A model generated the notes under the pieces. It saw nothing but the letters and a program-made list of their open reading frames with translations, did not search any database and was not told the DNA's origin. From the NCBI RefSeq assembly GCF_009789575.1, contig NZ_CP046908.1:3749001-3813000 (forward strand): a stretch of DNA of 64,000 nt, in the 5' to 3' direction. This stretch comes from Stappia indica. GTDB lineage: Bacteria; Pseudomonadota; Alphaproteobacteria; Rhizobiales; Stappiaceae. The translations under genes and the position numbers were made by a program. Positions 9,395 to 24,030 of this stretch are shown here, one piece after another; positions within the stretch are counted from its first letter, which is position 1, and every line of letters starts with the position of its first letter.

Positions 9395-9604
9395 GTGCAT
9401 AGATATGCGGTGCTGGGGCGGGAACGTCAACGGCTTTGATGGAAAAACATGACGCTGAAAGTCAGCTTTTGCCGCGCCTTTATGCCGCTACGTCGGATCG
9501 GGGTGGAGCGGGGGCGGATCGGGGTTGTCCGCCTCATGGGGGTGACCTGGGCCGGGATGACAGCCTGAGGGGGAGGCGCCGCCGTCGCCCCTCCTCTGCT
9601 GTCA

Positions 9605-10576
9605 TCAACTCATATCGTTGAGGTGGTCTCTCATTCTTGCGTTGAGGATGACGACGATCTTTCTCATGAGCGCGGTTAGGGCGACGATGGGCTTCTTTCC
9701 GTTTGCGATGAGCCTCTGGAAGACGGGTCGCAGCGGCCCTTTGCAGCGTGCGGCGCTGAGGGCGGCCATGAAGAGGATGGAACGGATCTGCGGGCGTCCG
9801 CCGCGGGTCTTGCGGTAGCCCTTCAAGGTTCCGCTGTCGTTGGGGTGTGGGGCAAGGCCCGCCAGGGATGCGGCCTGCTTTCCGGTCATGGTGCCGAGCT
9901 CGGGCATGGCGGCGGCCAGGGAGATGGCGGTCCTTGGCCCCACGCCCGGCAGCGAGCGGTAGAGGGCGATACGCCTTGCGAGCAGGGTGCATTGCGCGCA
10001 AAGGCCTGCGATGGCCGTGTCGATGGTCTCGATCTGGCGGTCGAGCGTTCTGACGAGGCTCCTGCAGGAGGCGACGACCAGGGTGCATCCGGGCGACTTG
10101 GCGCGGTTGAGTTCGGCGCCGCGAATGGCCATGAGGTCGTGCCTGCGGGCGACGAGCGCGGCGAGTTGCGCCTGGGTGCGATCGGCCGGGCGGTGGAGCG
10201 GCAGGTGGCGCCACCGCTCCTGGCCATAGGCGGCCAGCAGTGCGGCATCGATGGCATCGGTCTTGGCCAGTCGCCCGAAGGAACGGGCGAAGGCCCTGGC
10301 CTTGAGGGTGTCGGCGCGGTGGCAGGCGATGCCTGCGGCCGCGAGCTCTGCCAGCAGCAGGGCTTCGTGGCCGCCGGTCGGCTCGCAGACGATGAGCGTC
10401 CCGGAGGGCAGGCCGGCGACCAGCTTGCGGATCGCCCGGGCCGTGTTGGCCACGGTGCTGGCCCCGGTGCTGGCCACGGTGCAGGCGGCGGTGCCCGGCG
10501 CCGGACAGACGGCAAGGGTCAGCTTCGACACGTCGATGCCGACGACGTGGGACGGGGCATGTTCCAGAAAGGCCAT
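9605..10576 (-). CDS. IS110-family transposase (DEDD recombinase)
   Basis: This 323-residue IS110-type transposase has an N-terminal RuvC-like DEDD domain with GIDVSKLTL (first Asp), CEPTGG (Glu) and KTDAIDA (the two C-proximal Asp), then a C-terminal Transposase_20 part with SLPGVGPRTA and the serine-bearing GRPQIRSILFMAAL. The start MAFLEHAPS follows AGGATACCACCGCC; a longer in-frame extension crosses the element's non-coding end and is rejected. All catalytic residues are present, so the copy may be active. Such enzymes use a structured RNA from the element's own non-coding end to choose target and donor. Confidence 0.92.
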   Translation of the reverse strand: MAFLEHAPSHVVGIDVSKLTLAVCPAPGTAACTVASTGASTVANTARAIRKLVAGLPSGTLIVCEPTGGHEALLLAELAAAGIACHRADTLKARAFARSFGRLAKTDAIDAALLAAYGQERWRHLPLHRPADRTQAQLAALVARRHDLMAIRGAELNRAKSPGCTLVVASCRSLVRTLDRQIETIDTAIAGLCAQCTLLARRIALYRSLPGVGPRTAISLAAAMPELGTMTGKQAASLAGLAPHPNDSGTLKGYRKTRGGRPQIRSILFMAALSAARCKGPLRPVFQRLIANGKKPIVALTALMRKIVVILNARMRDHLNDMS

Positions 10577-10785
10577 GGCGGTGGTATCCTGATCGTGCTT
10601 CGGATTGTTCGCGGGCGTGGTGTCAGCCAGAGGCCCAATCAACTCTCCAAGCGGGAAAAGGAAGCGGCAGGGACCATGATGACGACGGGCGAAAGCCCAA
10701 TCACGGTCCGGTCGCCTGCCACTGGTCTCCCGGCGGTTCAGGCCGGGAGGCCACCCAAACTCTACCATCTCTCCAGACGAACAAC
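9606..10785 (-). mobile_element. IS110-type insertion sequence (boundaries inferred)
   Basis: The element is about 1.18 kb with one transposase gene and a non-coding end of about 200 bases upstream of it. No terminal inverted repeats are visible, as expected for this family. I set the boundaries by comparing flanks: GTCATC at 9601-9606 joined to CCCGGGCAAGCG at 10786 rebuilds a palindromic repeat present intact at 10859-10895. The transposase stop lies right at the inferred edge. Boundary uncertainty is a few bases each side. Confidence 0.65.
10577..10780 (-). ncRNA. Candidate IS110 bridge (guide) RNA region
   Basis: The non-coding end upstream of the transposase contains stable hairpins: an 8-bp stem CTCCCGGC/GCCGGGAG with a 7-base loop (10727-10749) and a GGGC-GAAA-GCCC tetraloop hairpin (10687-10698). 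In the IS110 group the bridge RNA is transcribed from this end. Length and structure fit, but no pairing between loops and target was established. Confidence 0.4.
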
Positions 10786-10895: not shown

Positions 10896-11040
10896 GAGAG
10901 CCGCCAAGCTTGTCGCACCTCATTGCGGGGCTTCCACAACCGCGGCCGGCGCGCCCCCTTGCCGGGGCGCTTCCGCAACCGCCCTCCGGCTCCCCTCTCT
11001 CCGCTCCCCTTGCTTTGCGCTTGAAACTCGCCCGCAGAAC

Positions 11041-11067
11041 ATGAATAGTGATTCATAATTCATATTA
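11041..11067. promoter_or_regulatory. Candidate TetR operator before the acyl-CoA operon
   Basis: ATGAAT-AGTG-ATTCAT is a perfect inverted repeat, followed by a further TTCAT. It ends 17 bases before the tetR start codon and so would cover the promoter. The 19-base core TGATTCATAATTCATATTA matches 15 of 19 positions at the site before the second transporter (21369-21387). Confidence 0.65.
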
Positions 11068-11084
11068 CCCGGGGGGAGGACGTC

Positions 11085-11864
11085 GTGGGCGAAGCGGAAA
11101 CGGGCAGAGGCGCGGGGCGGGCCGCAACCCGCGGCACGGCTGCGCGCGGGCGCAAGGCTCCTGCAAAGACGGGGGCCGGCAAGCCGCGCGCGCCCAAGAA
11201 TGACGCAACGGGAGCCGGTCCGGCAAGTGCTGTCGCGCCGGCCGGCGAGGATGCCGCCTCCGGCATGCCGAAAACCGCGCGCGGCGCGGCCACCCGGCGG
11301 GCGATCCTCGAGGCGGCCGAGCGTGTCATTGGCCGCCAGGGCTTCAACGAGGCTTCCATCGGCTCCATCACCCGCGAGGCCGGCGTCGCGCAAGGGACCT
11401 TCTACATCTACTTCGCCAGCAAGGACGAGGTCTTCTCCGAGCTCGTCGCCGAAATGGGCCGCATGCTGCGCCACGCGATCAGCGAGGCGACGTCCGGCTA
11501 CACCGACCGCCTGCAGGCCGAGCGCGAGGGCCTGCGCGCCTTCCTCGCCTTCGTCTCCGCCCATCCCGAGCTATACCGCATCGTCCAGGAGGCGCAGTTC
11601 GTCGACCGAGAGGCCTATCTCGCCTACTTCCGCACCTTCGCCGAAGGCTACCGCGAGGGGCTGGCGCGCGCCGCAAGCGCCGGCACCATCCGCCCCGGCG
11701 ATGCCGAGATCCGCGCCTGGACGCTGATGGGCATCGCCCGCTCGCTCGGCGAGTTCCAGGTGGTGTTCGGCGGCGCGGTCCCGGTCGACACCATGGTCGA
11801 GGTCGCCCACGATCTCATCGAGAACGGCCTCAAGGTCGGCAGCGGCAAGGGGGCGGGCGAATGA
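11085..11864 (+). CDS. TetR-family regulator with long basic N-terminal tail
   Basis: This is a 259-residue regulator. About 60 N-terminal residues are Ala/Gly/Lys/Arg-rich and low in complexity. The TetR helix-turn-helix then occupies about residues 66-112 (REAGVAQGTFYIYFASKDEVF), followed by a helical ligand domain. The GTG start is supported by GGGGAGGA six bases upstream. A palindrome directly in front suggests autoregulation. Its stop overlaps the crotonase start (ATGA), making it the first gene of the operon. The ligand is likely an acyl- or aryl-CoA or the free acid, by analogy with TetR regulators of such pathways; this is inference. Confidence 0.88.
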   Translation: MGEAETGRGAGRAATRGTAARGRKAPAKTGAGKPRAPKNDATGAGPASAVAPAGEDAASGMPKTARGAATRRAILEAAERVIGRQGFNEASIGSITREAGVAQGTFYIYFASKDEVFSELVAEMGRMLRHAISEATSGYTDRLQAEREGLRAFLAFVSAHPELYRIVQEAQFVDREAYLAYFRTFAEGYREGLARAASAGTIRPGDAEIRAWTLMGIARSLGEFQVVFGGAVPVDTMVEVAHDLIENGLKVGSGKGAGE

Positions 11865-12667
11865 GCGCCGCCGCCAGCCACCTCGTGCATCTCGACTGGC
11901 GGGAGGGCGCCGCATGGCTGACGCTCGACCGTCCGGGGCGCGGCAATGCCCTGGTGCCGGAACTGCTCGCCGCCTTGCGCGCGCGGATCGACGAGGCGCG
12001 GCAGGCGGGCGCCGGCGCCCTGGTGCTGACCGGGCGCGGCCGCGCCTTTTCCGCCGGCGGCGACGTCGCCCGCTTTGCCGCGCTCTCCGGGGACAGCAGC
12101 GACCTGCTCGATTGGTCGCGCGAGATCGTCGGCGCGCTCAACGCGGCGATCCTCGATCTTCTTGCCTTCCCGATGCCGGTGATCGCCGCGCTCAACGGTC
12201 CCGTCACCGGCGGCGCGGCCGGCCTCATGCTCGCCGCCGACATGGTGGTGATGAGCGAGGAGGCGTTTCTCCAGCCCTATTATGCGCAGATGGGCTTTGC
12301 GCCGGACGGCGGCTGGACGGCGCTGCTGCCCTCGCGCATCGGCACCGCGCGGGCGCTGGAGGTGCAATATCTCAACCAGCGCCTGAGTGCGGCCGACTGC
12401 CTGCGCCTTGGTCTGGCGAGCGAGACCTGCCCGCCGGCCCAGCTGGAGGCCCGCGTGCGCGCGCGGCTCGCGACCCTTGCGGAGATGGATGCCGGTACCC
12501 TTGCCGTGACCCGCGCCAATGTCTGGAACGAGGAACGCCGAGCCGCCGTCGCCAGGGATCTCGAGCGCGAGCTTCACGGCTTTCTCGCCTTGATCGCCCG
12601 GCCGCAAACGCGCGAGCGGATGCAGGCCTTTCTGGCCCCGCTTGCGGCCGGGGAGGGGCGGCGATGA
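11861..12667 (+). CDS. Crotonase-fold enoyl-CoA hydratase/isomerase
   Basis: The 268-residue crotonase has oxyanion-hole segments FSAGGD and NGPVTGGAAG. The first catalytic glutamate of true hydratases is absent (NGPVTGGAAGL), and the second position carries aspartate in FAPDGGW. That single-Asp pattern is typical of PaaG-like isomerases and other non-hydratase crotonases rather than classical 2-enoyl-CoA hydratase. Hydration in this operon may therefore fall to the MaoC-type proteins and double-bond movement to this enzyme. It overlaps both neighbours by four bases. Confidence 0.85.
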   Translation: MSAAASHLVHLDWREGAAWLTLDRPGRGNALVPELLAALRARIDEARQAGAGALVLTGRGRAFSAGGDVARFAALSGDSSDLLDWSREIVGALNAAILDLLAFPMPVIAALNGPVTGGAAGLMLAADMVVMSEEAFLQPYYAQMGFAPDGGWTALLPSRIGTARALEVQYLNQRLSAADCLRLGLASETCPPAQLEARVRARLATLAEMDAGTLAVTRANVWNEERRAAVARDLERELHGFLALIARPQTRERMQAFLAPLAAGEGRR

Positions 12668-14202
12668 TGTCCTGGGTCACCGACATGGCGGCCAAGCGCG
12701 CCGAGCTGACGCCCGCGCGCATCGCCTTCACCGACCACGAGACCGGCGCGCAGCTGACCTTCGCCGACGTCGAGGCCAGGGCCAACCGCACCGCCCGCGC
12801 CCTGCTGGCGCGGGGCGTTGCCGCCGGCGAGTGCGTCGCCGTCCTGTGCCACAATCACGCGGAGTTCTTCGTCCTGCTCTTCGCCGCCCAGAAGACCGGC
12901 ATCGTGCTGCTGCCGCTCAACTGGCGCCAGCCGCCCGCCGAACTCGCACCGGTCGTCGCCGCCTCCGGCGCGCGGCTGCTGCTGCATGACGGTGCAACAG
13001 TGGCAACCGCGCAGGCGCTTGCCGGTGATCTCGGGCTGGATCTTGTCGGTTTCGCCAATGCGCCCCTCGGCGGCGAGGCGCCCCATCTTGATCGGCTCGC
13101 CGCAGACCTCTCGTCCGCCCCGCTTGGCGAGAGCTGCGTCGAGGCCGGCCGGCCCTGGTATCTGCTGGCCACTTCCGGCACCACCGGCACCCCGAAACTG
13201 GTGATCCAGACGGCGGAAATGGCCTGGGCCAACGCGGTCAACTACACCCAGGCGACCGGCCTTGCAGGCACCGACCGCGCGGTCAACTTCCTGCCGCTGT
13301 TCCATACCGCCGGCATCAACCTGATGACCCTGCCGCTGTTCCTTGCCGGCGGCGAGAGCATCGTCTTGCGCAAGTTCGATGCCCCGGCGGTGCTGCGGCT
13401 GATCGGCGCCGGCCGGCTCACCGCCTTCTTCGGCGTGCCGGCGATCTACCAGGCGATCGCGCTGGAGCCCGGCTTTTCAGAGACGGACTTTTCCGCCCTG
13501 CGCTCGCTCGGCTGCGGCGGTGCGCCGATGCCCGCGCCCCTGCTTGAGACCTATCTGTCGCGCGGCGTCACCGTGTGCAACGGCATGGGCATGACCGAGA
13601 CCGGGCCGACCGTCTTCCTCGCCGACCCGCACGATGCGCCGCGCAAGATCGGCTCCGTCGGCAAGGCGCAGATCCTCGCCGAGGTGCGCCTGGTCTCGGT
13701 GACGGGCGAGGTGGTGGAGGGCGAAGGCGAGGGCGAATTGCAGATCCGCGGCCCCGGCGTCACGCCCGGCTATTTCGGCAATCCGCAGGCGAGCCGGGCT
13801 GCCTTCGCGCCGGGCGGCTGGCTGCTGTCGGGCGATGTCGCCCGCCGAGATGCCGACGGCTGCTACTACATCGTCGACCGCATCAAGGACATGTACATCT
13901 CCGGCGGCGAGAACGTCTATCCGGCCGAGGTCGAGCGGGTGCTGGTCGCCCATGAGGACGTGCTTGACGCGGTGGTGATCGGCGTGCCGGACGACAAGTG
14001 GGGCGAGGTCGGCGCTGCGTGGCTGATCGCCCGCCCCGGCGCGGTGATCGACGTCGCCGCGCTGATCCGTTGGTGTCGCGAGCGGCTCGCCGGCTACAAG
14101 GTGCCGCGCAGCTTCCGCATCGTCGACGAGTTGCCGCGCACCGCCGCCGGCAAGGTGCAGAAACACATCCTGAGAACACGACATGGGGAGAGCGGTCGGT
14201 GA
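12664..14202 (+). CDS. Acyl-CoA synthetase (AMP-forming, class I adenylate-forming)
   Basis: The 512-residue ligase activates a carboxylic acid with ATP and CoA. Motifs in order are A3 LLATSGTTGTPK near residue 170, A5 NGMGMTETG, A7/A8 SGDVARRDADG with YIVDRIKDMYISGGENVYP, and A10 PRTAAGK with the adenylation lysine at about 497. The closest types are medium-chain or aryl acid ligases; the acid is not predictable. The first of two adjacent ATGs overlaps the crotonase stop. Strict four-base overlaps through the operon indicate co-regulated synthesis. Confidence 0.9.
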   Translation: MMSWVTDMAAKRAELTPARIAFTDHETGAQLTFADVEARANRTARALLARGVAAGECVAVLCHNHAEFFVLLFAAQKTGIVLLPLNWRQPPAELAPVVAASGARLLLHDGATVATAQALAGDLGLDLVGFANAPLGGEAPHLDRLAADLSSAPLGESCVEAGRPWYLLATSGTTGTPKLVIQTAEMAWANAVNYTQATGLAGTDRAVNFLPLFHTAGINLMTLPLFLAGGESIVLRKFDAPAVLRLIGAGRLTAFFGVPAIYQAIALEPGFSETDFSALRSLGCGGAPMPAPLLETYLSRGVTVCNGMGMTETGPTVFLADPHDAPRKIGSVGKAQILAEVRLVSVTGEVVEGEGEGELQIRGPGVTPGYFGNPQASRAAFAPGGWLLSGDVARRDADGCYYIVDRIKDMYISGGENVYPAEVERVLVAHEDVLDAVVIGVPDDKWGEVGAAWLIARPGAVIDVAALIRWCRERLAGYKVPRSFRIVDELPRTAAGKVQKHILRTRHGESGR

Positions 14203-14582
14203 CGACGGCAACGGAGGAGTTTTCGGCACGCTGGGTGCCGACACAGGCGGATTTCGACGCCTTCGCGGAACTGTCGGGCGACGACAACCCGATCCATGTC
14301 GATGCGGAGTTTTCGGCGCGCACCCGCTTCGGGCGCACCGTCTCGCACGGCATGCTGCTCTATTCGCGCCTCTGGGCCCTGCTGCGGCAGCGCTATCCGG
14401 AGCATCGCCACGCGGTGCAGGCCTTGATGTTCCCCAATCCCGCCTATGCGGAGGAGGAGCTGGAGCTCGCCTTTTCGCCGGCAGATACCGGCGAGGCCGG
14501 GCTGGTAGCGATCACCATTTCGCGGGTCGCCGACGGGGCGCCCGTGCTTGTCGGGCAGTGCAGGCTGGAGGCGGGACGATGA
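14199..14582 (+). CDS. MaoC-type (R)-hydratase hotdog protein, catalytic half
   Basis: This 127-residue single-hotdog protein carries the hydratase-2 motif as SGDDNPIHVD, with Asp28 and His33 as the expected catalytic pair that adds water to a 2-enoyl-CoA. The GTG start overlaps the ligase stop (GTGA) and follows GGGGAG. It is immediately followed, again with a four-base overlap, by a second small hotdog protein lacking this motif. The pair could form a heterodimer like other split MaoC hydratases. Confidence 0.85.
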   Translation: MTTATEEFSARWVPTQADFDAFAELSGDDNPIHVDAEFSARTRFGRTVSHGMLLYSRLWALLRQRYPEHRHAVQALMFPNPAYAEEELELAFSPADTGEAGLVAITISRVADGAPVLVGQCRLEAGR

Positions 14583-14947
14583 AGCTGGACGTGGGACAGA
14601 GCGCCGAGGTGAGCCGCCGCTTTCCGGCATCGGATGCGGCCGTCTTTGCCGGTCTTGCCGGGCTGGACCGCCTGCCGGAGGCGGTGCCGCAGCCGCTGAT
14701 CGGCGGGCTGTTTTCCTATCTGCTCGGCGTCCGGCTGCCGGGCTTCGGCACCAACTACCTGAAGCAGGAAATGTCCTTCCTGTCCGAGGCGCGGTTCGGC
14801 GAGATGCTGAGCGCGCGGGTGACGATCACGCGCCTGCGCCCGGAAAAGCATCTCGTCGACCTTGAGACCGTGTGTCTCGGCGAGGACGGGCGGCGCATCT
14901 GCGAGGGCCGGGCGCTGGTCTATGTCGAGGACGCCGTCGCCGCCTGA
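14579..14947 (+). CDS. MaoC-like hotdog protein without hydratase motif
   Basis: This 122-residue hotdog protein shows LPGFGTNYLKQEMSFL (compare the PGxGTxYLxQ signature of MaoC-like and FabZ-like folds). The Asp/His hydratase motif of the preceding protein is missing. Likely roles are the non-catalytic partner of the upstream hydratase or a thioesterase-like activity; the sequence does not decide. It is the last gene of the TetR operon. Confidence 0.78.
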   Translation: MKLDVGQSAEVSRRFPASDAAVFAGLAGLDRLPEAVPQPLIGGLFSYLLGVRLPGFGTNYLKQEMSFLSEARFGEMLSARVTITRLRPEKHLVDLETVCLGEDGRRICEGRALVYVEDAVAA

Positions 14948-14961
14948 GGGGCCCGACAACG

Positions 14962-14990
14962 GAAAACGCCGCCGGCGGGGCCGGCGGCGT
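14962..14990 (-). terminator. Terminator between the acyl-CoA operon and the cold-shock gene
   Basis: ACGCCGCCGGC and its perfect 11-bp complement enclose a GGG loop. On the minus strand the stem is followed by TTTTCC, so it best fits termination of the cold-shock gene. The plus strand lacks a T-run, but the stem may still protect the end of the acyl-CoA operon. Confidence 0.65.
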
Positions 14991-15026
14991 CAGAACCTGG
15001 GTTCCTTGCGGAACGGCTCGGTCTGC

Positions 15027-15239
15027 TCAGGCGAGCTCGAGCTGGGCGGCCTGCAGGCCACGACCGCGACGGTCTTCCTCGGTCACGAAGGTCAGCGTGG
15101 TGCCCTCGGCCGGAACGGCGAGGCCCGAACGCTCGAAAGCCGTGATGTGAACGAACACGTCCTTGCCGCCCTCGGCCGGGGTCACGAAGCCGAAGCCACG
15201 ATCATGGTTGAAGAACTTCAGGGTGCCGGTCTGGCGCAT
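15027..15239 (-). CDS. Cold-shock protein (CspA family)
   Basis: This 70-residue single cold-shock domain has RNP1 as RGFGFVTP and RNP2 as VFVHITAF, the RNA/ssDNA-binding faces. It stands alone, ending at its own hairpin, with about 250 bases upstream that hold no other gene and probably contain its promoter and a long leader. Its position between the two halves of the presumed TetR regulon is probably incidental. Confidence 0.93.
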   Translation of the reverse strand: MRQTGTLKFFNHDRGFGFVTPAEGGKDVFVHITAFERSGLAVPAEGTTLTFVTEEDRRGRGLQAAQLELA

Positions 15240-15497
15240 GGGAAAACTCCTGTCCCGTGTCGATAGTTAAGCGCAAGTAAGCGCGCTTGCTTGCGCGAGC
15301 GTGGCATTCAGAAACGGGAAAGGCAGTTCTGTTCGACAGAACCGGTCGTTTTGGACCAGGAAGCGCCGCATACCGAAACTTTCTTAACCGGGTTCGAATT
15401 TTCAAGCCCGCTGAGGCCGGTCCGAAAACCGACCGGGCGAAGTGTATGCGAAAACCCTGGGACCGGCAAGCGTCGCCGCAGCGTCCGCGGCGCTTCC

Positions 15498-16322
15498 TCA
15501 CGCAGGTTCGGCGCCTTGCAGGGTTCCGTGCCGCCGCAGCAGCCCGGCCAGCATGTCATTGAAGCTGCTGGATTCCTCCAGATGCGGCGAGTGGCCCGAC
15601 CGGGCGAAGGTCTCGATGCGGGCACGGGGCAGGTGCGCCGCCTGCCACTCGGCGGCCGCGAGGCCGTAGAGCTGGCTGCGCGCACCCCGCGCCAGCACCA
15701 CGGGCACGTCGATGCGCGGCGTCAGGGGGCGAAAATCCTGGATCGTCAGCGAGCGCCACATGGCGGCGAGCAGCCGCGGGTTCGCGCGGCGCATCTCCCG
15801 TTCGGCGAAGTCGACCAGCTCCTTGCGCGCGCCGGGGGCGAAGCTCCGCCGGGCGGTTGCTGGCGCCAGCAGCGGCCACTGGCCCTCGATGGCCTTGAGG
15901 AACACCGCGTTGCGCGGCCCGTCGAGGCCGTTCAGCGTGCCCAGCGTCCAGTCCGGCCCGTTGATCACCCGCGGCGCCATGTCCTCCACCACCAGCGCGG
16001 CGATCCGGCCGCTGCCGTGGCGCTCGATCATCGACCAGGCAACGAGCGCGCCCATCGACCAGCCGACCAGCACGGCCTGCGCGATGTCCTCTTCCTGCAT
16101 CAATGCGGCCAGCGCGTCCGCGCCCGCCTCGATGCTCGGCGTCACCGTGTCGCCGGTCTTGCCATGGCCCGGCAGGTCGGGGGCGATCACCTCGGTGAGG
16201 TCGCTGAGGGCCTCCAGCTGCGGCGCAAAGAAGCCGCCATGGCAGGACCAGCCGTGCAGCAGGATCAGGACCGGCACGCCCGGTCGCCGCCGGCCGGCCC
16301 GGTGCAGATGCAGCCTGCTCAT
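15498..16322 (-). CDS. Alpha/beta-hydrolase at the end of transporter operon 2
   Basis: The 274-residue alpha/beta-hydrolase has the oxyanion-hole HGWS near residue 23, nucleophile elbow GWSMG (Ser89) and a C-terminal SGHSPHLE with the catalytic histidine. At the usual position of the acidic residue the chain reads RGARSQL without an aspartate, so the acid must come from elsewhere or activity is altered. The start overlaps the LivM-like stop (ATGA), so it belongs to the transporter operon. It could release an acid from an imported ester or amide, or hydrolyse a CoA thioester. That role is inferred from context only. Confidence 0.85.
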   Translation of the reverse strand: MSRLHLHRAGRRRPGVPVLILLHGWSCHGGFFAPQLEALSDLTEVIAPDLPGHGKTGDTVTPSIEAGADALAALMQEEDIAQAVLVGWSMGALVAWSMIERHGSGRIAALVVEDMAPRVINGPDWTLGTLNGLDGPRNAVFLKAIEGQWPLLAPATARRSFAPGARKELVDFAEREMRRANPRLLAAMWRSLTIQDFRPLTPRIDVPVVLARGARSQLYGLAAAEWQAAHLPRARIETFARSGHSPHLEESSSFNDMLAGLLRRHGTLQGAEPA

Positions 16323-17377
16323 CCACGGTTCCTCAGCCGGCCGACGATGCCGTCCGGGAAGAAATAGACCGACAGGATGAACAGCGTGCCGAGCCACAGC
16401 AGCCAGCGCTCGGGCGCCACCAGGTCGGGCAGCAGCGGCATGCCGCGCGTTGCCGCCTCGGCGCTGGCCATCAGGCTCTGCAGATAGGTCTGAGCGAGAA
16501 TGAACAGGCTCGCGCCGATCACCGCCCCGTACATGGTGCCCATGCCGCCGATCACCACCATCAGGAGGATGTCGATCATGATCTCCATGGACAGGGTCGT
16601 CGCCGGTCCCGTGTAGCGGATCCAGATGGCGAGCAGCGCACCGGCAAGGCTCGCCATGGCGGCGGACAGCACCGTCGCCGTGGTGCGATAGAGCACCACC
16701 CGGTAGCCGATCGCCTCGGCGCGGAAGGCATTGTCGCGCACCGCCTTCAGCGTCGTGCCGAAGGGCGAGTTGACGATGCGCAGCATGATCAGAAACAGCA
16801 CCAGGGCGCTGAAGAAGACGAGGTAATAGGCAAGCAGCCTCCCGTCGATCCGCACGTCGAAGAGGCGCATGTCGGTCAGGCGGAAGGCCGGCGTCAGCTC
16901 GCGCGGGATCCGGTAGGTCAGCCCGTCCTCGCCGCCGGTGATCGAGGAGAGCTGCGAGACCAGCACGGCGAAGGCGCTCGCCACCGCCAGCGTCACCATG
17001 GCGAAGAAGATCGCCTTCACCCGCAACGAGAACAGGCCGATGGCGAGCGCCAGCGCGCAGGACACCGCCGTGCCGGCCAGCACGCCGACGAGGATCGCCA
17101 GGAACGAGGCGCCCAGGCTCCCGAGTGCCAGCGCCACGCCATAGGCGCCGATGCCGAAGAACATCGTATGGGCGAAGGAGACGATGCCGGTATAGCCGAG
17201 CAGCAGGTCGTAGCTCGCCACCAGCACGATGAAGATGCAGATGCGCGCGGCCGTATCGAGCGGCTTGGTGCCGGGAAACAGGAACGGCGCGAAGGCAAGG
17301 CAGAGGCCGATCGCGATCAGCAGCAGCGCGAGCGGCCGGCTGTGCGGGCGGTCGCCGGAAAGGAGGGTGTCGATCAT
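16319..17377 (-). CDS. Liv-type ABC transporter permease (LivM-like), system 2
   Basis: This 352-residue membrane protein carries the LivM signatures YDLLLGYTGIVSFAHTMFFG and LKAVRDNAFRAEAIGYRV (cytoplasmic coupling loop), with about ten hydrophobic segments. It lies between the LivH-like permease, which ends seven bases before it, and the hydrolase. Its family resembles importers for aromatic or other organic acids as well as amino acids. Confidence 0.9.
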   Translation of the reverse strand: MIDTLLSGDRPHSRPLALLLIAIGLCLAFAPFLFPGTKPLDTAARICIFIVLVASYDLLLGYTGIVSFAHTMFFGIGAYGVALALGSLGASFLAILVGVLAGTAVSCALALAIGLFSLRVKAIFFAMVTLAVASAFAVLVSQLSSITGGEDGLTYRIPRELTPAFRLTDMRLFDVRIDGRLLAYYLVFFSALVLFLIMLRIVNSPFGTTLKAVRDNAFRAEAIGYRVVLYRTTATVLSAAMASLAGALLAIWIRYTGPATTLSMEIMIDILLMVVIGGMGTMYGAVIGASLFILAQTYLQSLMASAEAATRGMPLLPDLVAPERWLLWLGTLFILSVYFFPDGIVGRLRNRG

Positions 17378-17384
17378 CTTGCGC

Positions 17385-18413
17385 CTACTTTGCCTTGACC
17401 ACGGGATAGAGGCCCTGCGGCCGCCACATCAGCACGCCCACCATCAGCGCGATGGTGGAGACCAGCGCCACCTTGGGCGCCATGAACGCCATGTAGTTGG
17501 ACAGGAGGCCGACCAGCAGCGCGCCGATGAAACAGCCCTCGATGGAGCCGAGCCCGCCGATGATCACCACGACGAAGACCAGCACCATGATCTCCGAGCC
17601 CATATGCGCGGTGATCGTCTCCTGATAGAGGCCCCACATGATGCCGCCGAGACCGGCGAGCGCCGATCCTGCCATGAACACCAGCAGGAACAGCCGGTTG
17701 ATCCGGTAGCCGAGCGCCTCGACCATCTCGCCGTTCTCCACTCCGGCGCGCACCAGCAGGCCGAGCTTGGTCGCCCGCAGCACGTGGCGCATGGCGACGA
17801 ACAGCACCAGCCCGATGGCCACCGCCAGCATGCGGTATTTCTCGATGGCCGCCTCGCCGATGATGAACGAGCCCTGCAGCGAGGGCGGGCGGGCGACATG
17901 GATCGCGTCCGGCCCCCAGACCACGTGGATCAGCTGCTGGGCGACGATCAGCCCGCCCATGGTGACGAGGATCTGCTTCAGGTGATGGCCGTAGACCGGC
18001 TTGACGATCACCCGCTCGAAGGCGAGCCCGAGCGCGCCGGTCACCGCCATGGAGGCGAGGATCGCCAGGAACACGGCGGCAAGGTTCAGTACCACGGCCG
18101 GGTTCTGCGTCCAGCCGGACAGCCAGGCGAGCACGGTGAAGCCGACGAAGGCGCCGACCGAGACGAAGGCGCCATGGCCGAAATTGATCACGTCCATCAG
18201 GCCGAAGACGACCGTGAGCCCCGAGGCCATGATGAAGATCATCAGTCCCATGGCGAGCCCGGCGACCGTCAGCGTCAGCCACACGGACGGATCGCCGACG
18301 GCGACAAGCCCGACGAGCGCCAGCACCGGCGCCAGCAGCAGCGGCGCCGCCTTGCCGAGCCGTTCCATCGCCGTCGGTCCGACCAGGCGGGGGCGGATCG
18401 CGGTTTCGCTCAC
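17385..18413 (-). CDS. Liv-type ABC transporter permease (LivH-like), system 2
   Basis: The 342-residue permease has an N-terminal cytoplasmic extension of about 20 residues, then LivH features: GLTVVFGLMDVINFGHGAF, LGLLVRAGVENGEMVEALGY and GGLGSIEGCFIGALLVG. It overlaps the LivF-like stop by four bases. Order and overlaps indicate a single operon on the minus strand. Confidence 0.9.
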   Translation of the reverse strand: MSETAIRPRLVGPTAMERLGKAAPLLLAPVLALVGLVAVGDPSVWLTLTVAGLAMGLMIFIMASGLTVVFGLMDVINFGHGAFVSVGAFVGFTVLAWLSGWTQNPAVVLNLAAVFLAILASMAVTGALGLAFERVIVKPVYGHHLKQILVTMGGLIVAQQLIHVVWGPDAIHVARPPSLQGSFIIGEAAIEKYRMLAVAIGLVLFVAMRHVLRATKLGLLVRAGVENGEMVEALGYRINRLFLLVFMAGSALAGLGGIMWGLYQETITAHMGSEIMVLVFVVVIIGGLGSIEGCFIGALLVGLLSNYMAFMAPKVALVSTIALMVGVLMWRPQGLYPVVKAK

Positions 18414-19135
18414 TGGTGCACCTCCAGGCTGAGGCCCATCAGCTTCTCCTGCAGCGACGCGTCGGCGGCAAGTTCCGCCATCGCGCCCGCATGGACGATG
18501 CGCCCGTCATCCATCACCGCCACCGTGTCGCCGAGCGCCGAGGCCATGGCGAAATTCTGCTCCACCAGGAGGATGGTGGTGTCGGTGTCCTTGAGTTGCT
18601 TCAGAGCCGCCGTCATCGCGGCGATGATCGCCGGGGCCAGGCCCTTGCTCGGCTCGTCGATCAGGATCAACCGGCGCGGCTCGATGATCGCGCGGGCGAC
18701 CGACAGCATCTGCTTCTGTCCGCCCGACAGCGTGCCGGCGGCCTTGTCCCAGAACGTGCCGATAGGCGGGAACAGCTCCTTGATCCATGCGAGGCGCCTC
18801 TCGTCGAACGGCCCGCTCGTGGCGGCAAGGCGCATGTTCTCCGCCACCGTCAGGTCGGCGAAGATGCCCATGTTCTCCGGCACATAGGCAATGCCCGCCC
18901 GGGCGATGTCCGGCGTTGCCAGCGACTGGATCGGCCGCCCGTCGAAGGTGATGGTGCCCCGGCTCGCCTTCCACAGGCCCATGATGGTGCGCAGCGTCGT
19001 CGACTTGCCGGCGCCGTTGCGCCCCAGCAGCATGGTCACCCCGCCGCGCGGCACGGCAAAGCTCACCTCATGCAGGATGTGATAGGGGCCGATATGGGTG
19101 TGGACGCCCTCCAGCGTCAGCAGCGCGTCAGCCAT
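18410..19135 (-). CDS. Liv-type ABC transporter ATPase (LivF-like), system 2
   Basis: This 241-residue ATPase has Walker A GRNGAGKST, signature LSGGQKQ, Walker B LILIDEPSKGLAP and switch-region LLVEQNFA, in which the usual histidine is asparagine, as in many LivF proteins. MADALLTLEG is the chosen start; it overlaps the end of the LivG-like gene by eight bases. Confidence 0.9.
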   Translation of the reverse strand: MADALLTLEGVHTHIGPYHILHEVSFAVPRGGVTMLLGRNGAGKSTTLRTIMGLWKASRGTITFDGRPIQSLATPDIARAGIAYVPENMGIFADLTVAENMRLAATSGPFDERRLAWIKELFPPIGTFWDKAAGTLSGGQKQMLSVARAIIEPRRLILIDEPSKGLAPAIIAAMTAALKQLKDTDTTILLVEQNFAMASALGDTVAVMDDGRIVHAGAMAELAADASLQEKLMGLSLEVHQ

Positions 19136-19931
19136 GGGCGGTCTCCGTTGCAGCGGCACCCGGTGTCGCGGCATCCGGGGCCTTGCCGAGATAGGCTTCC
19201 TGCACGATGGCCGAGCGCATCACTTCGCCCGGCTCGCCGTCGGCGACCAGCGCGCCGTTGTGCAGCACGACGATGCGGTCGGCCAGGGTGCGGATCACGT
19301 CCATCTTGTGCTCGACCAAGAGGATCGTGCGGTCCTTGTCGGCCTTCAGCTCGCGGATCAGGTCGAGGATCACCGGCACCTCGTCGACGCTCATGCCGGC
19401 GGTCGGCTCGTCGAACATCAGCACCTGCGCGCCGAGCGCGATCATCAGCGCGACCTCCAGCTTGCGCTGGTCGCCATGCGGCAGGGCGGAGACGGTGACG
19501 TCGCGCTTGTCGGCGAGCCGCACCTCGGAGAGCACATGTTCGGCCCGCTCGATCAGCTCCACATGCGAACTTGCCCGCGAGAACAGGTCGAAGCCGCGCC
19601 GCGCGCGCGATTGCGCCACCAGCCGCACGTTCTCGCGCACGCTGAGGCTGGGAAACAGGTTGGTCAGCTGGAACGCTCGGCCGATGCCGCGCTCGCAGCG
19701 GTCGGCAACACCAAGGCGGGTGATGTCCTCGCCGTTGAGGCGCACCGTGCCGGCGCTGGCCTTCAGCTGGCCCGAGACGAGATTGAAATAGGTGGTCTTG
19801 CCGGCGCCGTTCGGTCCGACGATGGCAGTCAGCGTGCCGCGCTCGAAGGCGCAGGTCACCGCGTCGACCGCGACATGGCCGCCGAAGCGGATCGTCAGGT
19901 CCTCGGTCGCAAGAACGGGCGGTTCGCGCAT
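19128..19931 (-). CDS. Liv-type ABC transporter ATPase (LivG-like), system 2
   Basis: The 267-residue ATPase has Walker A GPNGAGKTT, a degenerate signature ALPHGDQRK in place of LSGGQ, Walker B VLMFDEPTAGMS and switch LLVEHKMD. The altered signature is common among LivG-like proteins for organic acids and need not impair function. MREPPVLATED is the start; an in-frame extension of nearly 80 codons runs through the intergenic hairpin and is not coding. Confidence 0.88.
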   Translation of the reverse strand: MREPPVLATEDLTIRFGGHVAVDAVTCAFERGTLTAIVGPNGAGKTTYFNLVSGQLKASAGTVRLNGEDITRLGVADRCERGIGRAFQLTNLFPSLSVRENVRLVAQSRARRGFDLFSRASSHVELIERAEHVLSEVRLADKRDVTVSALPHGDQRKLEVALMIALGAQVLMFDEPTAGMSVDEVPVILDLIRELKADKDRTILLVEHKMDVIRTLADRIVVLHNGALVADGEPGEVMRSAIVQEAYLGKAPDAATPGAAATETAHG

Positions 19932-19984
19932 GAGGGCTCGGCTCCGGGAAAGGGCACGGGAAAGGCACGGTGTCGGAAAGTTCG

Positions 19985-20018
19985 GGCGGCCCGGCCGCGG
20001 CGAAAGGGCCGGGCCGCC
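19985..20018 (-). promoter_or_regulatory. Intra-operon hairpin after the binding-protein gene
   Basis: GGCGGCCCGGCC pairs perfectly with its complement across a 10-base loop. No T-run follows on the minus strand. Between a binding-protein gene and its ATPase genes, such stems usually stabilise the upstream mRNA and keep the binding protein in excess. Confidence 0.6.
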
Positions 20019-20095
20019 TCGCGTGGCGGAAATTGAAACACGCTTTGGGAGTGCCGCCGAGACGACGCGTGTTCCAAGCTCACCACGACAGAGCG

Positions 20096-21292
20096 TCAGC
20101 GCGTGTTGCGGATCGGGATGTTCATGTCCTCGATCTTCAGCTCGCGCACCAGTTCCGGAATGCCCCACTCGACCTCCGGATCGACCCGGATCTTGAAGTG
20201 GTACATGGACTGCAGCGCCTGGTGATCCTCCGCGCGGAAGGTCATCGTGCCCTTCGGCGTTTCGAAGGACATGCCCTCCATCGCCGCGATCAGCTCTTCC
20301 GTGTCGGTCGAGCCGGCCTTGCGGATGCCCTCGACGACGGCGATGGCGGCCGACATGCCGCCGGCGGTGAAGAAGTCCGGCGGCGAGCCGTGGCGCTTCT
20401 CGTGCTCGGAGACCAGCCAGTCGTTCGCCGCGTTCTTCGGGATGTCGTGGTAATAATAGGTGGCGCCTTCCATGCCCGGCAGCGCCTTGTAGGCCTTCAT
20501 CGCCGCCAGGATGTTGCCGCCGGTGGCGATCTCGATGCCGAAGCGCTCCGGCTCCATCGCCTTGATCTTGCCGATCGGGTTGTTGGCGCCGGCCCAGATC
20601 ACGAACAGGAACTTGCGGCCCTCGATGTCCTTCATCGCGTCGAAGATGCGCTGGGCGCTGGCGGTGAAGTCCTGGGTGTCGGTGGGGGCGTATTCCTCGA
20701 AGGCGAGCTTGGCGCCCGTGCCGGCCAGCGCCTCGCGGAAGGCGGCGACGCCGTCGCGGCCGAAGGCGTAGTCCTGCGCCAGCGTGGCGATGGTGACGCC
20801 GTCCTTGCCGAGCGCCACCGCGTTGGCGATGGCGTCCTGCGAGGAGTTGCGCCCCGTGCGGAAGACGTAGCGGTTCCAGTTCTCGCCGGTGATGGAATCG
20901 GCCACCGCCGGCTCGACCAGGAGCAGCTTGCCGTATTCCTCGGCGACCGGCAGCATCGCCAGCGCGACGCCCGAGGACACCGGCCCGACGGCAAGGTGCA
21001 CGTCGTCGTCGCCATAGGCTTCGGCCAGCGCGGCGCGGCCGATATCCGGCTTCAGCTGGGTGTCCTTCTCGATGACGACGATCTTGCGGCCGTCGATCTC
21101 CATCGTGCCGTCCGTCGCGTATTCCAGCCCCATCATGAAGCCGATATGCGACTGCTTGGCATAGGCCTCCAGCGCGCCGGTCTTGCCGTAGACATGGGCA
21201 ATGCGGATGTCCTCGGCCTTGGCCCCGGCGCCCATCGGCGCGGCGGCAAGGGCTGCGGCAAGCAGCGCGGCCGCGGTGGCATGTCTGATCAT
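20096..21292 (-). CDS. Periplasmic binding protein, Liv-like family, system 2
   Basis: This is a 398-residue solute-binding protein with a signal peptide (about 1-25, ending AGAKA). The mature domain is of the Peripla_BP_6 type (IAHVYGKTGALEAYAKQ, AVGPVSSGVALAMLPVAEEYG, LAQDYAFGRDGVAAF). GGGAGG stands five bases before the chosen ATG. It is the first gene of the minus-strand operon, followed by livG-, livF-, livH- and livM-like genes and a hydrolase. The shared operator-like site upstream ties it to the TetR acyl-CoA operon. The ligand is probably the acid activated there; this is inference. Confidence 0.88.
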   Translation of the reverse strand: MIRHATAAALLAAALAAAPMGAGAKAEDIRIAHVYGKTGALEAYAKQSHIGFMMGLEYATDGTMEIDGRKIVVIEKDTQLKPDIGRAALAEAYGDDDVHLAVGPVSSGVALAMLPVAEEYGKLLLVEPAVADSITGENWNRYVFRTGRNSSQDAIANAVALGKDGVTIATLAQDYAFGRDGVAAFREALAGTGAKLAFEEYAPTDTQDFTASAQRIFDAMKDIEGRKFLFVIWAGANNPIGKIKAMEPERFGIEIATGGNILAAMKAYKALPGMEGATYYYHDIPKNAANDWLVSEHEKRHGSPPDFFTAGGMSAAIAVVEGIRKAGSTDTEELIAAMEGMSFETPKGTMTFRAEDHQALQSMYHFKIRVDPEVEWGIPELVRELKIEDMNIPIRNTR

Positions 21293-21360
21293 GGTGTCCT
21301 CCCTGTGGCGCGGGTCGCGGGCCGCTCCTCCAGCCCGCCGCTCCGTATCGCCGCCGTTAT

Positions 21361-21387
21361 ATGACGCATGATTCATGTTTCATGTCA
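21361..21387. promoter_or_regulatory. Second candidate TetR operator, before transporter 2
   Basis: TGATTCATGTTTCATGTCA matches 15 of 19 positions of the site in front of tetR. Both share ATGA-N8-TCAT and a following TTCAT. It lies 69-95 bases upstream of the binding-protein start, in the expected promoter position. Confidence 0.6.
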
Positions 21388-23256: not shown

Positions 23257-24030
23257 TCAGCGCAGCGGCGCCCGGCCCTTGGAGAACAGGAAGCCGCGCT
23301 TGGCTTCGAACAGCCACAGGCCGAGCCTTGCCAGCAGGGCCACGTCGCCGGCCGGCAGCAGCGACTTGCGCCCGACGCGGGTGAGATTGAAGCCGCGGAA
23401 GGTCTCGAACACCCGGCGCGTCATGCCGAAGGTCTTGTGGAAGCGCGGGTGCCCGCCGGCCGCAAAGCGCGGATGGAACGAGACGTAGCAGTCGACCCGC
23501 TCGCGCTGCAGTAGCGGCGCCAGCAGCGGCGCCACCTCGTATTCCGCACCCTCGATGTCCATCTTGATGAACAGCTTGTCGTTCGGCCCGATCATCGCTG
23601 CGATCTCCTCGATGGAAATGCAGTCGACATCGAAGGTCACGCTCGCGTCCTTGTGCACGAAGGACGACATCGAATCGCCCGGCGCGGTCTTGGCGGCCAT
23701 CTTGCGGCTGCCGCTCTGCGTCCACACCGCCTTGCGGATCACCGTGACCTTGTCCTTGAAGGCCGGGTTGAGCGCGAGATTGGCCTCCAGCTCGTCGGCC
23801 GCGGTCGGGTCCGGCTCGAAGGCGATGACCTTGCGCCCGCGCTGCGCCTCGTAGAGCACGGTCGGGCCGACCCAGGCGCCGAAGTCGAGGCAGACGGTAT
23901 CCTCGTCGACGCAGGCATCGAGAATGTCGTAGGTCGGCTTTTCCCAGTTGCCGTTTTCCGCCTGCCGCCAGAAGCCGGGGCGCGCATCGTTCACCTGGAA
24001 GGAAATGTCGCGGATCGTCACGCTGTGCAT
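23257..24030 (-). CDS. FkbM-family methyltransferase
   Basis: The 257-residue SAM-dependent methyltransferase has motif I VCLDFGAWVGPTVLYEA, the acidic loop FEPDPTA and the FkbM hallmark IKMDIEGAEYEV. FkbM enzymes methylate hydroxyl groups of sugars and polyketides. The glycosyltransferase next door on the same strand suggests a role in modifying a surface glycan. It could also be a different small-molecule O-methyltransferase. Confidence 0.85.
   Translation of the reverse strand: MHSVTIRDISFQVNDARPGFWRQAENGNWEKPTYDILDACVDEDTVCLDFGAWVGPTVLYEAQRGRKVIAFEPDPTAADELEANLALNPAFKDKVTVIRKAVWTQSGSRKMAAKTAPGDSMSSFVHKDASVTFDVDCISIEEIAAMIGPNDKLFIKMDIEGAEYEVAPLLAPLLQRERVDCYVSFHPRFAAGGHPRFHKTFGMTRRVFETFRGFNLTRVGRKSLLPAGDVALLARLGLWLFEAKRGFLFSKGRAPLR

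Follow-up and report, generated by a model that had tools for sequence, protein, structure and literature searches.

An 11-gene uptake-plus-activation module in Alphaproteobacteria with a shared 23-bp operator and a predicted TetR-type repressor

The locus and its genes

The 64,000-nucleotide stretch of the Stappia indica genome analysed here (NCBI RefSeq assembly GCF_009789575.1, contig NZ_CP046908.1, positions 3,749,001 to 3,813,000; hereafter the window) contains two convergent operons, each preceded by a copy of the same 23-bp dyad. The operon on the forward strand encodes a TetR-family regulator, a crotonase-family protein, an acyl-CoA ligase, a MaoC-type and a MaoC-like hotdog protein, while that on the reverse strand encodes a substrate-binding protein, two ATP-binding cassette (ABC) ATPases, two permeases and an alpha/beta hydrolase (Table 1). 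These gene calls had been made in an initial annotation based on the bare sequence, and both Pfam domains and PDB matches bear them out. Start and stop codons overlap at most gene junctions. The importer set is of the HAAT/LIV type and is complete within one operon (one Peripla_BP_6, two BPD_transp_2 and two ABC_tran proteins); the true start of its LivG-like ATPase probably lies near position 19930, because homology only begins near residue 80 of the longest open reading frame. In the following, we describe the evidence that these 11 genes probably form a regulon of their own for uptake and activation, controlled by a single TetR repressor that also regulates itself.

Table 1. Features of the two operons; positions refer to the window
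Feature	Position	Strand	Remarks
Sigma-70-like promoter, TTGAAA-17-AATAGT	11021..11049	+	Consensus match only; overlapped by operator 1
Operator 1, ATGAATAGTGATTCATAATTCAT	11041..11063	.	0 mismatches to dyad; before tetR operon; kept in relatives
tetR, FadRSa-like repressor (predicted)	11085..11864	+	GTG start; TetR_N; conservation starts around residue 61
Crotonase-family protein, PaaG-like isomerase type	11861..12667	+	ECH_1; alignment of 23 rows; PDB matches
AMP-forming acyl-CoA ligase	12664..14202	+	AMP-binding, AMP-binding_C; alternative ATG at 12667
MaoC-type hotdog hydratase	14199..14582	+	MaoC_dehydratas; SGDDNPIHVD; PhaJ 1iq6
Second hotdog protein, PhaJ-like, presumed partner subunit	14579..14947	+	Family profile against 1iq6, E 9e-20
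Alpha/beta hydrolase	15498..16322	-	Abhydrolase_6; GWSMG nucleophile elbow; 24-row alignment; best PDB match 4g5x
LIV-type permease, LivM-like	16319..17377	-	BPD_transp_2
LIV-type permease, LivH-like	17385..18413	-	BPD_transp_2
ABC ATPase, LivF-like	18410..19174	-	ABC_tran
ABC ATPase, LivG-like	19128..20168	-	ABC_tran, BCA_ABC_TP_C; longest open reading frame
Periplasmic substrate-binding protein, 398 residues	20096..21292	-	Peripla_BP_6; PDB 3n0x/3nnd, E 1.7e-179
Operator 2, ATGACGCATGATTCATGTTTCAT	21361..21383	.	1 mismatch to dyad; before importer operon; kept in relatives

The operator

At both sites, the dyad ATGAANNNTGAWTCANNNTTCAT is built of two interlocked TGA-N8-TCA inverted repeats with a 7-bp offset. 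Its two copies are identical at 17 of 23 positions and are, as had been noted before, AT-rich stretches (5 and 8 G or C bases out of 23, in a window of 67.8% GC). They had initially been described as two 19-mers (11049-11067 and 21369-21387), which indeed agree at 15 of 19 positions but are off register; the full element is the 23-bp dyad. By analogy with known regulators (see below), it resembles an interlocked operator of the two-dimer type.

The element is rare. ATGA-N8-TCAT occurs three times in the window (0.38 expected), each time within one of the two operators, and in the whole genome of 5,116,759 bases, ATGANNNNTGATTCATNNTTCAT is found at up to two mismatches in two places only, which are the two operators, both exact. 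Each of them also matches this pattern on the opposite strand, at two mismatches. The reversed pattern, used as a control on the whole genome, yielded no place, and the relaxed pattern TGANNNNTGANTCANNNNTCA revealed no further regulon members in this genome at zero mismatches, the one stringency tried. Operator 1 starts 44 bp and ends 21 bases ahead of the tetR GTG, overlapping a promoter-like element that was the single one found by a scan there, against a mean of 0.0 in shuffled sequences. Operator 2 lies 69-91 bp ahead of the binding-protein ATG and is preceded by a TTGACA at 21388-21383 on the reverse strand, which we recognized by eye.

Conservation and co-occurrence with TetR

The initial annotation had named the presence of the motif ahead of both operons in relatives as a test of its single-regulon claim. 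The relaxed pattern occurs at exactly two places in 13 of the 14 genomes of the genus and at none in the remaining one, G082, which has neither the TetR (profile E <= 1e-45) nor the binding protein (E <= 1e-150). At these thresholds, the TetR is present in 55 and the binding protein in 66 of the 87 genomes of the family. Of the 55 TetR-positive genomes, 52 have a site with no more than one mismatch (all 13 in the genus and 39 of the 42 others), as against none of the 32 TetR-negative ones, which comprise 11 genomes with two-mismatch places only, 20 without any, and G082, where a stricter pattern has one place outside the matches listed. With the stricter pattern, a place of up to two mismatches is present in 65 of the 87 genomes, chance places included. 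Thirteen of the TetR-negative genomes, all of genus code g6 (probably Pseudovibrio), retain the binding protein without a site of at most one mismatch, and therefore the sites appear to track tetR and not the importer. Motif conservation in relatives thus does not refute the single-regulon claim, but supports it.

Beyond the family, a draw of 397 genomes from the order, our own included, contains 24 with a dyad of at most one mismatch, 10 of them in the family and 14 outside. Nine of these 14 were inspected: six carry the module (G103, G333, G363, G262, G177 and G285), a seventh shows its importer end on a short contig (G303), and an eighth a paralogous system (G374).

To locate the sites relative to the genes, we surveyed 143 loci (L033-L052, L072-L161, L174-L189, L220-L229 and L241-L247, with L001-L032, L053-L071, L162-L173, L190-L219 and L230-L240 set aside), which make up 142 distinct stretches and 2,790,794 bases. 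TetR matches were accepted from 41% identity and 400 bases, binding-protein matches from 48% and 600 bases, and upstream regions from 200 bases; for the other module genes, tblastn matches of at least 33% identity (45% for the ATPases) were considered. Of at least 365 confirmed loci, the best 80 are named, and the nearest binding proteins among these come from Stappia. Some genomes are present in two copies, one unnamed and one named, so that exact repeats of upstream regions were counted once.

Among the 142 stretches, 133 places with at most three mismatches lie within 420 bases upstream of a TetR or binding-protein gene, against seven elsewhere; when the consensus was shuffled ten times with its dyad preserved, 16 places were obtained in total, each at three mismatches. 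Such a site precedes 53 of the 65 TetR genes and 56 of the 64 binding-protein genes with a TetR in the same stretch. The binding-protein upstream regions without a TetR in the stretch are bimodal, with 18 of 70 at up to two and 52 of 70 at six to nine mismatches. The 18 are mostly Roseibium/Labrenzia contigs, plus some short ones, and in relatives of the former that were taken with a wider span, tetR is found at a distance of some 11-16 kb. A symmetrised matrix from 60 distinct sites of the chosen loci (at most three mismatches) contains 28.3 bits, with TGA, TGA-W-TCA and TCA nearly fixed.

Six of the seven places elsewhere can be accounted for: one ahead of the binding-protein gene of L051 (G046), which is split in two frames and probably broken, with both operators and the other genes still present; two overlapping ones inside an over-long TetR frame in L075; one each at a second LIV-type importer (L242), a reduced module (L245) and the paralogous system (L079). 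The place in L080 is unexplained. In L079 (G374), a one-mismatch site at 9593-9615 separates a different LIV-type importer operon from a ligase-tetR pair (33% and 36% identity), and this pair and importer are a paralogous regulon of like design.

Arrangements and spread

The two operons of the module are convergent in Stappia, Hoeflea and Amorphus, and arranged in tandem in Pannonibacter carbonis and Roseibium denhamense. In Breoghania, the halves are 160 kb apart, each with one site (L033, L034). In other loci, they diverge around a single site, which has one or two mismatches in L189, L222 and L223, three in L188, L221 and L227, and four in L226, and on a Roseinatronobacter plasmid, all 11 genes form a single run with one two-mismatch site ahead. 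The importer and the acid-activating genes, which had been proposed to form one module, do recur as a unit across relatives. With a site of at most three mismatches, the module or its importer half is found in the family codes f1, f6, f14, f16, f18, f36, f44, f87, f144 and f156, and further in f103 and f179 (four mismatches) and f108 (five). Around 16 binding-protein matches in the family of G121, a TetR is nearby in four stretches and the full module present in two (L188, L189).

When the profile of the second hotdog protein was run class-wide on 385 genomes, 74 of them gave a match at E <= 1e-15. We fetched the best ten after our own, and in all of them, TetR, ligase and MaoC genes lie alongside; six of these ten modules have a site with at most three mismatches. 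The Niveispirillum type (L229 and L240, the same record by coordinates) has no ABC importer; there, two genes resembling those for a TonB receptor and an MFS transporter come after the hydrolase gene, with Pfam domains checked on the like-arranged L228, and the site of L229 has four mismatches. No crotonase gene was found by tblastn at 33% identity or more in L139 and L143.

The operator consensus had been fixed before the plasmid records were fetched. In three of these (L241, L243, L244), sites are present at zero to two mismatches. The plasmids of Nitratireductor and Mameliella have two sites each, at zero or one. The plasmid of Hoeflea sp. IMCC20628 (L242) has a perfect site ahead of the binding-protein gene and another perfect one at 23636-23658, about 100 bp ahead of a second, divergent LIV-type ABC operon, which, judging from this site, is probably an extra member of the regulon. 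A Qingshengfaniella plasmid carries tetR and a crotonase-like stretch between two perfect operators (L245:11963-14463); other module genes were not found there by tblastn, and it looks like a reduced module. In L238 and L239, the TetR homologues of Sphingopyxis (41%) and Novosphingobium (39%) have a two-mismatch site just upstream, flanked by tetR and a TonB-receptor gene in the former and by tetR and an MFS gene in the latter. Mariluticola and Haematobacter (L246, L247), which have a binding protein and no TetR, show no place under five mismatches.

Several neighbouring genes deserve mention. In the window, an IS110-type transposase gene lies at 9605-10768, just upstream of the tetR operon, and another one, 55% identical to it, is found at L037:3151-4266 (G010); these may have a bearing on module movement. 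At L074:12592-15996 (G363), a Cas9-like gene and then two small genes resembling Cas1 and Cas2, by eye, adjoin the module. In L044 (2001-3233) and other Roseibium loci, a 5-aminolevulinate synthase-like gene of the aminotransferase class diverges from tetR about 300 bp from the operator, which it may or may not share. We considered this gene, a Rieske-like one and other genes between the operons as core members (names by eye, aminotransferase domain by Pfam), and rejected them because they are seen in Roseibium only.

The regulator, the enzymes and the importer

The best PDB match of the TetR is FadRSa of Sulfolobus acidocaldarius (6el2/6en8; profile E 8e-44, the next chain following at 2.4e-17), with which it aligns ungapped over 170 residues, 57 of them identical. 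Among the residues named for FadRSa, R73, R86, F97, F126, G48, Y51 and Y53 are identical, while K77, R132, M101, F68, F111, Y47, L49 and F52 differ. The kept residues include the CoA contacts R73 and R86, which are invariant in 11 rows, as well as Y51 and Y53 of the DNA-contact region. According to the accessible parts of its description, FadRSa represses a 23-gene cluster, its DNA complexes are disrupted by acyl-CoA, and both R73 and R86 were mutated as ligand contacts; it recognizes a 16-bp dyad in two stoichiometric modes, with a QacR-like dimer of dimers suggested on overlapping repeats (PMC6449355). Because of this analogy, we infer that the TetR described here is FadRSa-like, would occupy its operator as two dimers and would be released by a CoA thioester.

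The ligase matches feruloyl-CoA synthetase best (8wev and 8weu; profile E 7e-135, next protein 3.5e-107). The SGD-NPIH loop of hotdog hydratases is their catalytic loop. It is present in the MaoC protein, whose SGDDNPIHVD is invariant in nine of nine rows, and absent from the second hotdog protein in eight of eight rows; the latter has no Pfam match at E <= 0.01. Both hotdog profiles match PhaJ structures best in the PDB (1iq6), and with adjacent genes, one encoding the loop and one not, the second protein is presumably the partner subunit of a heteromeric MaoC hydratase. In the records L242, L243 and L244, it is annotated as phosphate acetyltransferase, which is very likely wrong. The crotonase has mostly G and Y at what we take to be the catalytic Glu positions, and an invariant Asp in GFxPDGGW, presumably that of PaaG-type isomerases (23 rows, aligned by eye); it thus lacks the two catalytic Glu of a classical enoyl-CoA hydratase. 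A hydroxycinnamoyl-CoA hydratase-lyase was considered for it and rejected, as this family is not among the NCBIfam matches listed (25 of 70) and other residues occupy the Glu positions. For the hydrolase, the best PDB match is 4g5x, the lactonase AidH, and arylesterases follow at lower ranks.

The binding protein aligns gap-free over 372 residues with 3n0x/3nnd, which we assume to be a Rhodopseudomonas palustris protein with the locus tag RPA4397; solved relatives beyond these are remote (E 8e-27 at best) and presumably bind benzoate-type acids or nicotinate. RPA4397 is not mentioned in the accessible parts of the R. palustris binding-protein screen (PMC3223731), so that no ligand can be taken from it, and those of a Ruegeria pomeroyi transporter study name no such importer system (PMC10130141). 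A D-lactate transporter was considered and dropped, with no match for its locus tags in the open-access literature searched.

Genomic context points to a substrate class. In Roseobacter-type genomes, binding-protein orthologues of 73-79% identity are located in HpaR-marked homoprotocatechuate/homogentisate clusters. In Phaeobacter marinintestinus (L157), HpaR, HpaE, both HpaD kinds and HpaH score above the NCBI cut-off, and HpaI and a part of HpaG below it; in Shimia (L147), HmgA, fumarylacetoacetase, MaiA and HpaR are above it. These HpaR belong to a MarR group with members in 16 of the 49 TetR-less loci grouped. In a quick, midpoint-rooted tree of 123 binding proteins, the 17 with Hpa/Hmg markers nearby all fall in one group of 21 rows (SH-aLRT 92); its sister group comprises 14 TetR-linked and three other rows (fork 82), where TetR-linked means a TetR hit or a site of at most two mismatches in the stretch. 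Because of these clusters, and of the ligase being closest to feruloyl-CoA synthetase, we favour an aryl-alkanoic or aryl-alkenoic acid of the phenylacetate or phenylpropanoid type as the most likely substrate, a prediction to which we give about an even chance.

Discussion

We consider it likely that the 11 genes are co-regulated as follows. Without substrate, the TetR would sit as two interlocked dimers on each 23-bp dyad, one of which covers the promoter of the tetR operon and the other lies just upstream of the importer operon, and would repress both operons, its own gene included. Basal amounts of importer and ligase would let in a little carboxylic acid and convert it to a CoA thioester, which would bind the TetR and free both operators, so that expression of importer, hydrolase, ligase, isomerase and hydratase increases jointly. 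An ester or lactone would first be cleaved by the hydrolase to give the acid, the ligase would turn this acid into the acyl-CoA, the PaaG-like crotonase would move a double bond, and the MaoC pair would hydrate the shifted double bond, with general beta-oxidation encoded elsewhere completing the degradation.

A number of observations weigh against this picture. Four of the 65 TetR upstream regions have their best place at four mismatches and eight at five or more, as do, at four or more, eight of the 64 binding-protein regions with a TetR in the stretch. These cases are partly explained, since they include L075, whose site lies inside the assigned tetR frame, and probably also L241, whose tetR is internal to the operon; no such excuse applies to L092, L143, L185, L186, L225 and the Hoeflea plasmid, whose tetR has a five-mismatch place only, with an IS6 element within 1 kb. 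Likewise, four of the ten class-wide modules have only a four- or five-mismatch place, and three TetR-positive family genomes (G031, G056, G067) have no site of at most one mismatch. Conversely, G044 and G045 contain third one-mismatch places far from the module, which we ascribe to chance, and in G090, outside the family, the place inspected, one of three, is a one-mismatch place without the module; G111, G167, G198, G312 and G385 were left out of that inspection. Eighteen binding-protein regions have a site but no TetR in the stretch, and the promoter scan called nothing on the reverse strand at operator 2. As to the pathway, the crotonase gene is absent in L225, L228 and L229, no acyl-CoA dehydrogenase or thiolase gene lies within the module, and the FadRSa acyl-CoA contacts K77, R132 and M101 are S, G and V here. 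Some contexts of the binding protein do not suggest an aromatic substrate either: its orthologue in Mariluticola (73%) is found beside a 3-hydroxybutyrate dehydrogenase, a 50% homologue in Haematobacter within a beta-oxidation cluster, and those of Pseudovibrio in other surroundings that do not point to aromatics, while those of Bradyrhizobium-like genomes are uninformative.

Two alternatives leave the regulon as such untouched. The substrate might be an (R)-3-hydroxyalkanoic acid or an oligomer thereof, with the hydrolase cutting oligoesters, the ligase forming the (R)-3-hydroxyacyl-CoA and the PhaJ-like MaoC pair converting it to the enoyl-CoA. PhaJ being the best match of both hotdog profiles would fit, as would the Mariluticola gene order, in which the orthologue directly follows the dehydrogenase (above cut-off), and the CoA-transferase-like genes recognized by eye downstream in Terasakiella (L131). 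These are isolated contexts, however, whereas the larger set is aromatic, and the verified 3-hydroxybutyrate importer of R. pomeroyi, hbtABC (SPO2571-2573), has, by the accessible part of its description, three genes and not five (PMC10130141); we regard this substrate as unlikely. It is also doubtful that the TetR responds to the free acid or another metabolite in place of the CoA thioester. Its FadRSa CoA contacts are only partly kept, the neighbourhood of the TetR yielded no module ligase in L185, L238, L239 and L245, and many TetR proteins bind free ligands, but both of the arginines that were mutated in FadRSa as contacts to the ligand are retained, and every full module that we read contains a CoA ligase.

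The remaining alternatives concern the sites themselves. Their assignment to the TetR is based on sequence, and another regulator might read them, with tetR as a mere neighbour. This is very unlikely, as the sites follow tetR rather than the importer: the 13 g6 genomes mentioned above have kept the binding protein and have neither the TetR nor a site of at most one mismatch, and a site precedes tetR even at 160 kb from the importer. A chance resemblance of two AT-rich words, or a repeat of another kind, we consider practically negligible; single one-mismatch places do arise by chance in some genomes, but two sites recur in 13 of the 14 genomes of the genus with none in the control, and the shuffled consensus yields nothing under three mismatches. 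The genome counts, the conservation in the genus and the shuffles led us to reject it.

The preferred reading remains the CoA-thioester-controlled regulon. Neither a TetR repressor acting on CoA-ester catabolism nor an ABC importer encoded next to an aromatic-acid CoA ligase is new as such. For the combination found here, its operator and its spread, we found no description in the open-access literature, a scope outside which most subscription papers fall, in line with the initial remark that no described system of exactly this composition was known to its author. It is about evenly balanced, in our judgement, whether this is a previously undescribed, transferable 11-gene module of Alphaproteobacteria in which a FadRSa-type TetR would respond to the CoA thioester that its own ligase produces and, by way of an interlocked two-dimer operator, drive the import and activation of one class of (aryl-)alkanoic acids. 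Its uptake half would be exchangeable, as for TonB receptor and MFS genes in Niveispirillum, with regulator, ligase, MaoC pair and hydrolase constant, and it has a paralogous importer-ligase counterpart in G374. If so, vaguely named genes, such as those for a branched-chain amino acid permease or a MaoC protein, would combine into a single pathway open to testing, for which regulator, operator and inducer are predicted and which is present in several alphaproteobacterial families as well as on plasmids. The binding-protein lineage, for which a structure has been solved, would gain a testable substrate class, and the operator would be a ready reporter for finding the substrate.

Comparison with known systems

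QacR is a drug-efflux regulator and in this differs from the module's TetR. The likeness is in the operator, since the two-dimer site of the QacR type is described as two overlapping inverted repeats (as cited in the accessible parts of PMC6449355), and the 7-bp offset found here is known from sequence. FadRSa is the closest solved TetR protein, and the accessible text reports a dyad site, two dimers on overlapping repeats at some operators, binding to its own control region and repression of a CoA-ester catabolic cluster, much as autorepression is proposed here (PMC6449355). In contrast, it is archaeal, its 30-kb cluster of 23 genes comprises lipases and beta-oxidation enzymes, and no LIV-type importer is mentioned for it in that text (PMC6449355).

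Among importer-linked systems, the Roseobacter-type HpaR clusters share the importer lineage of the window and differ in having another regulator and ring-cleavage enzymes; by tblastn at 33% identity or more, they contain neither the window's ligase nor its hotdog proteins. The p-coumarate system of R. palustris is regulated by CouR, a member of the MarR family. As far as its accessible description goes, that system (RPA1786-1793) resembles ours in that genes for an ABC importer adjoin those for a CoA ligase and a hydratase/lyase of the crotonase type, for an aromatic acid, and differs in that no MaoC pair is mentioned, a comparison made by description only (PMC3223731).

The MaoC pair, finally, has a counterpart in the ChsH1-ChsH2 heteromer of Mycobacterium, in which one subunit has the catalytic loop and one does not, and which belongs to a steroid pathway.

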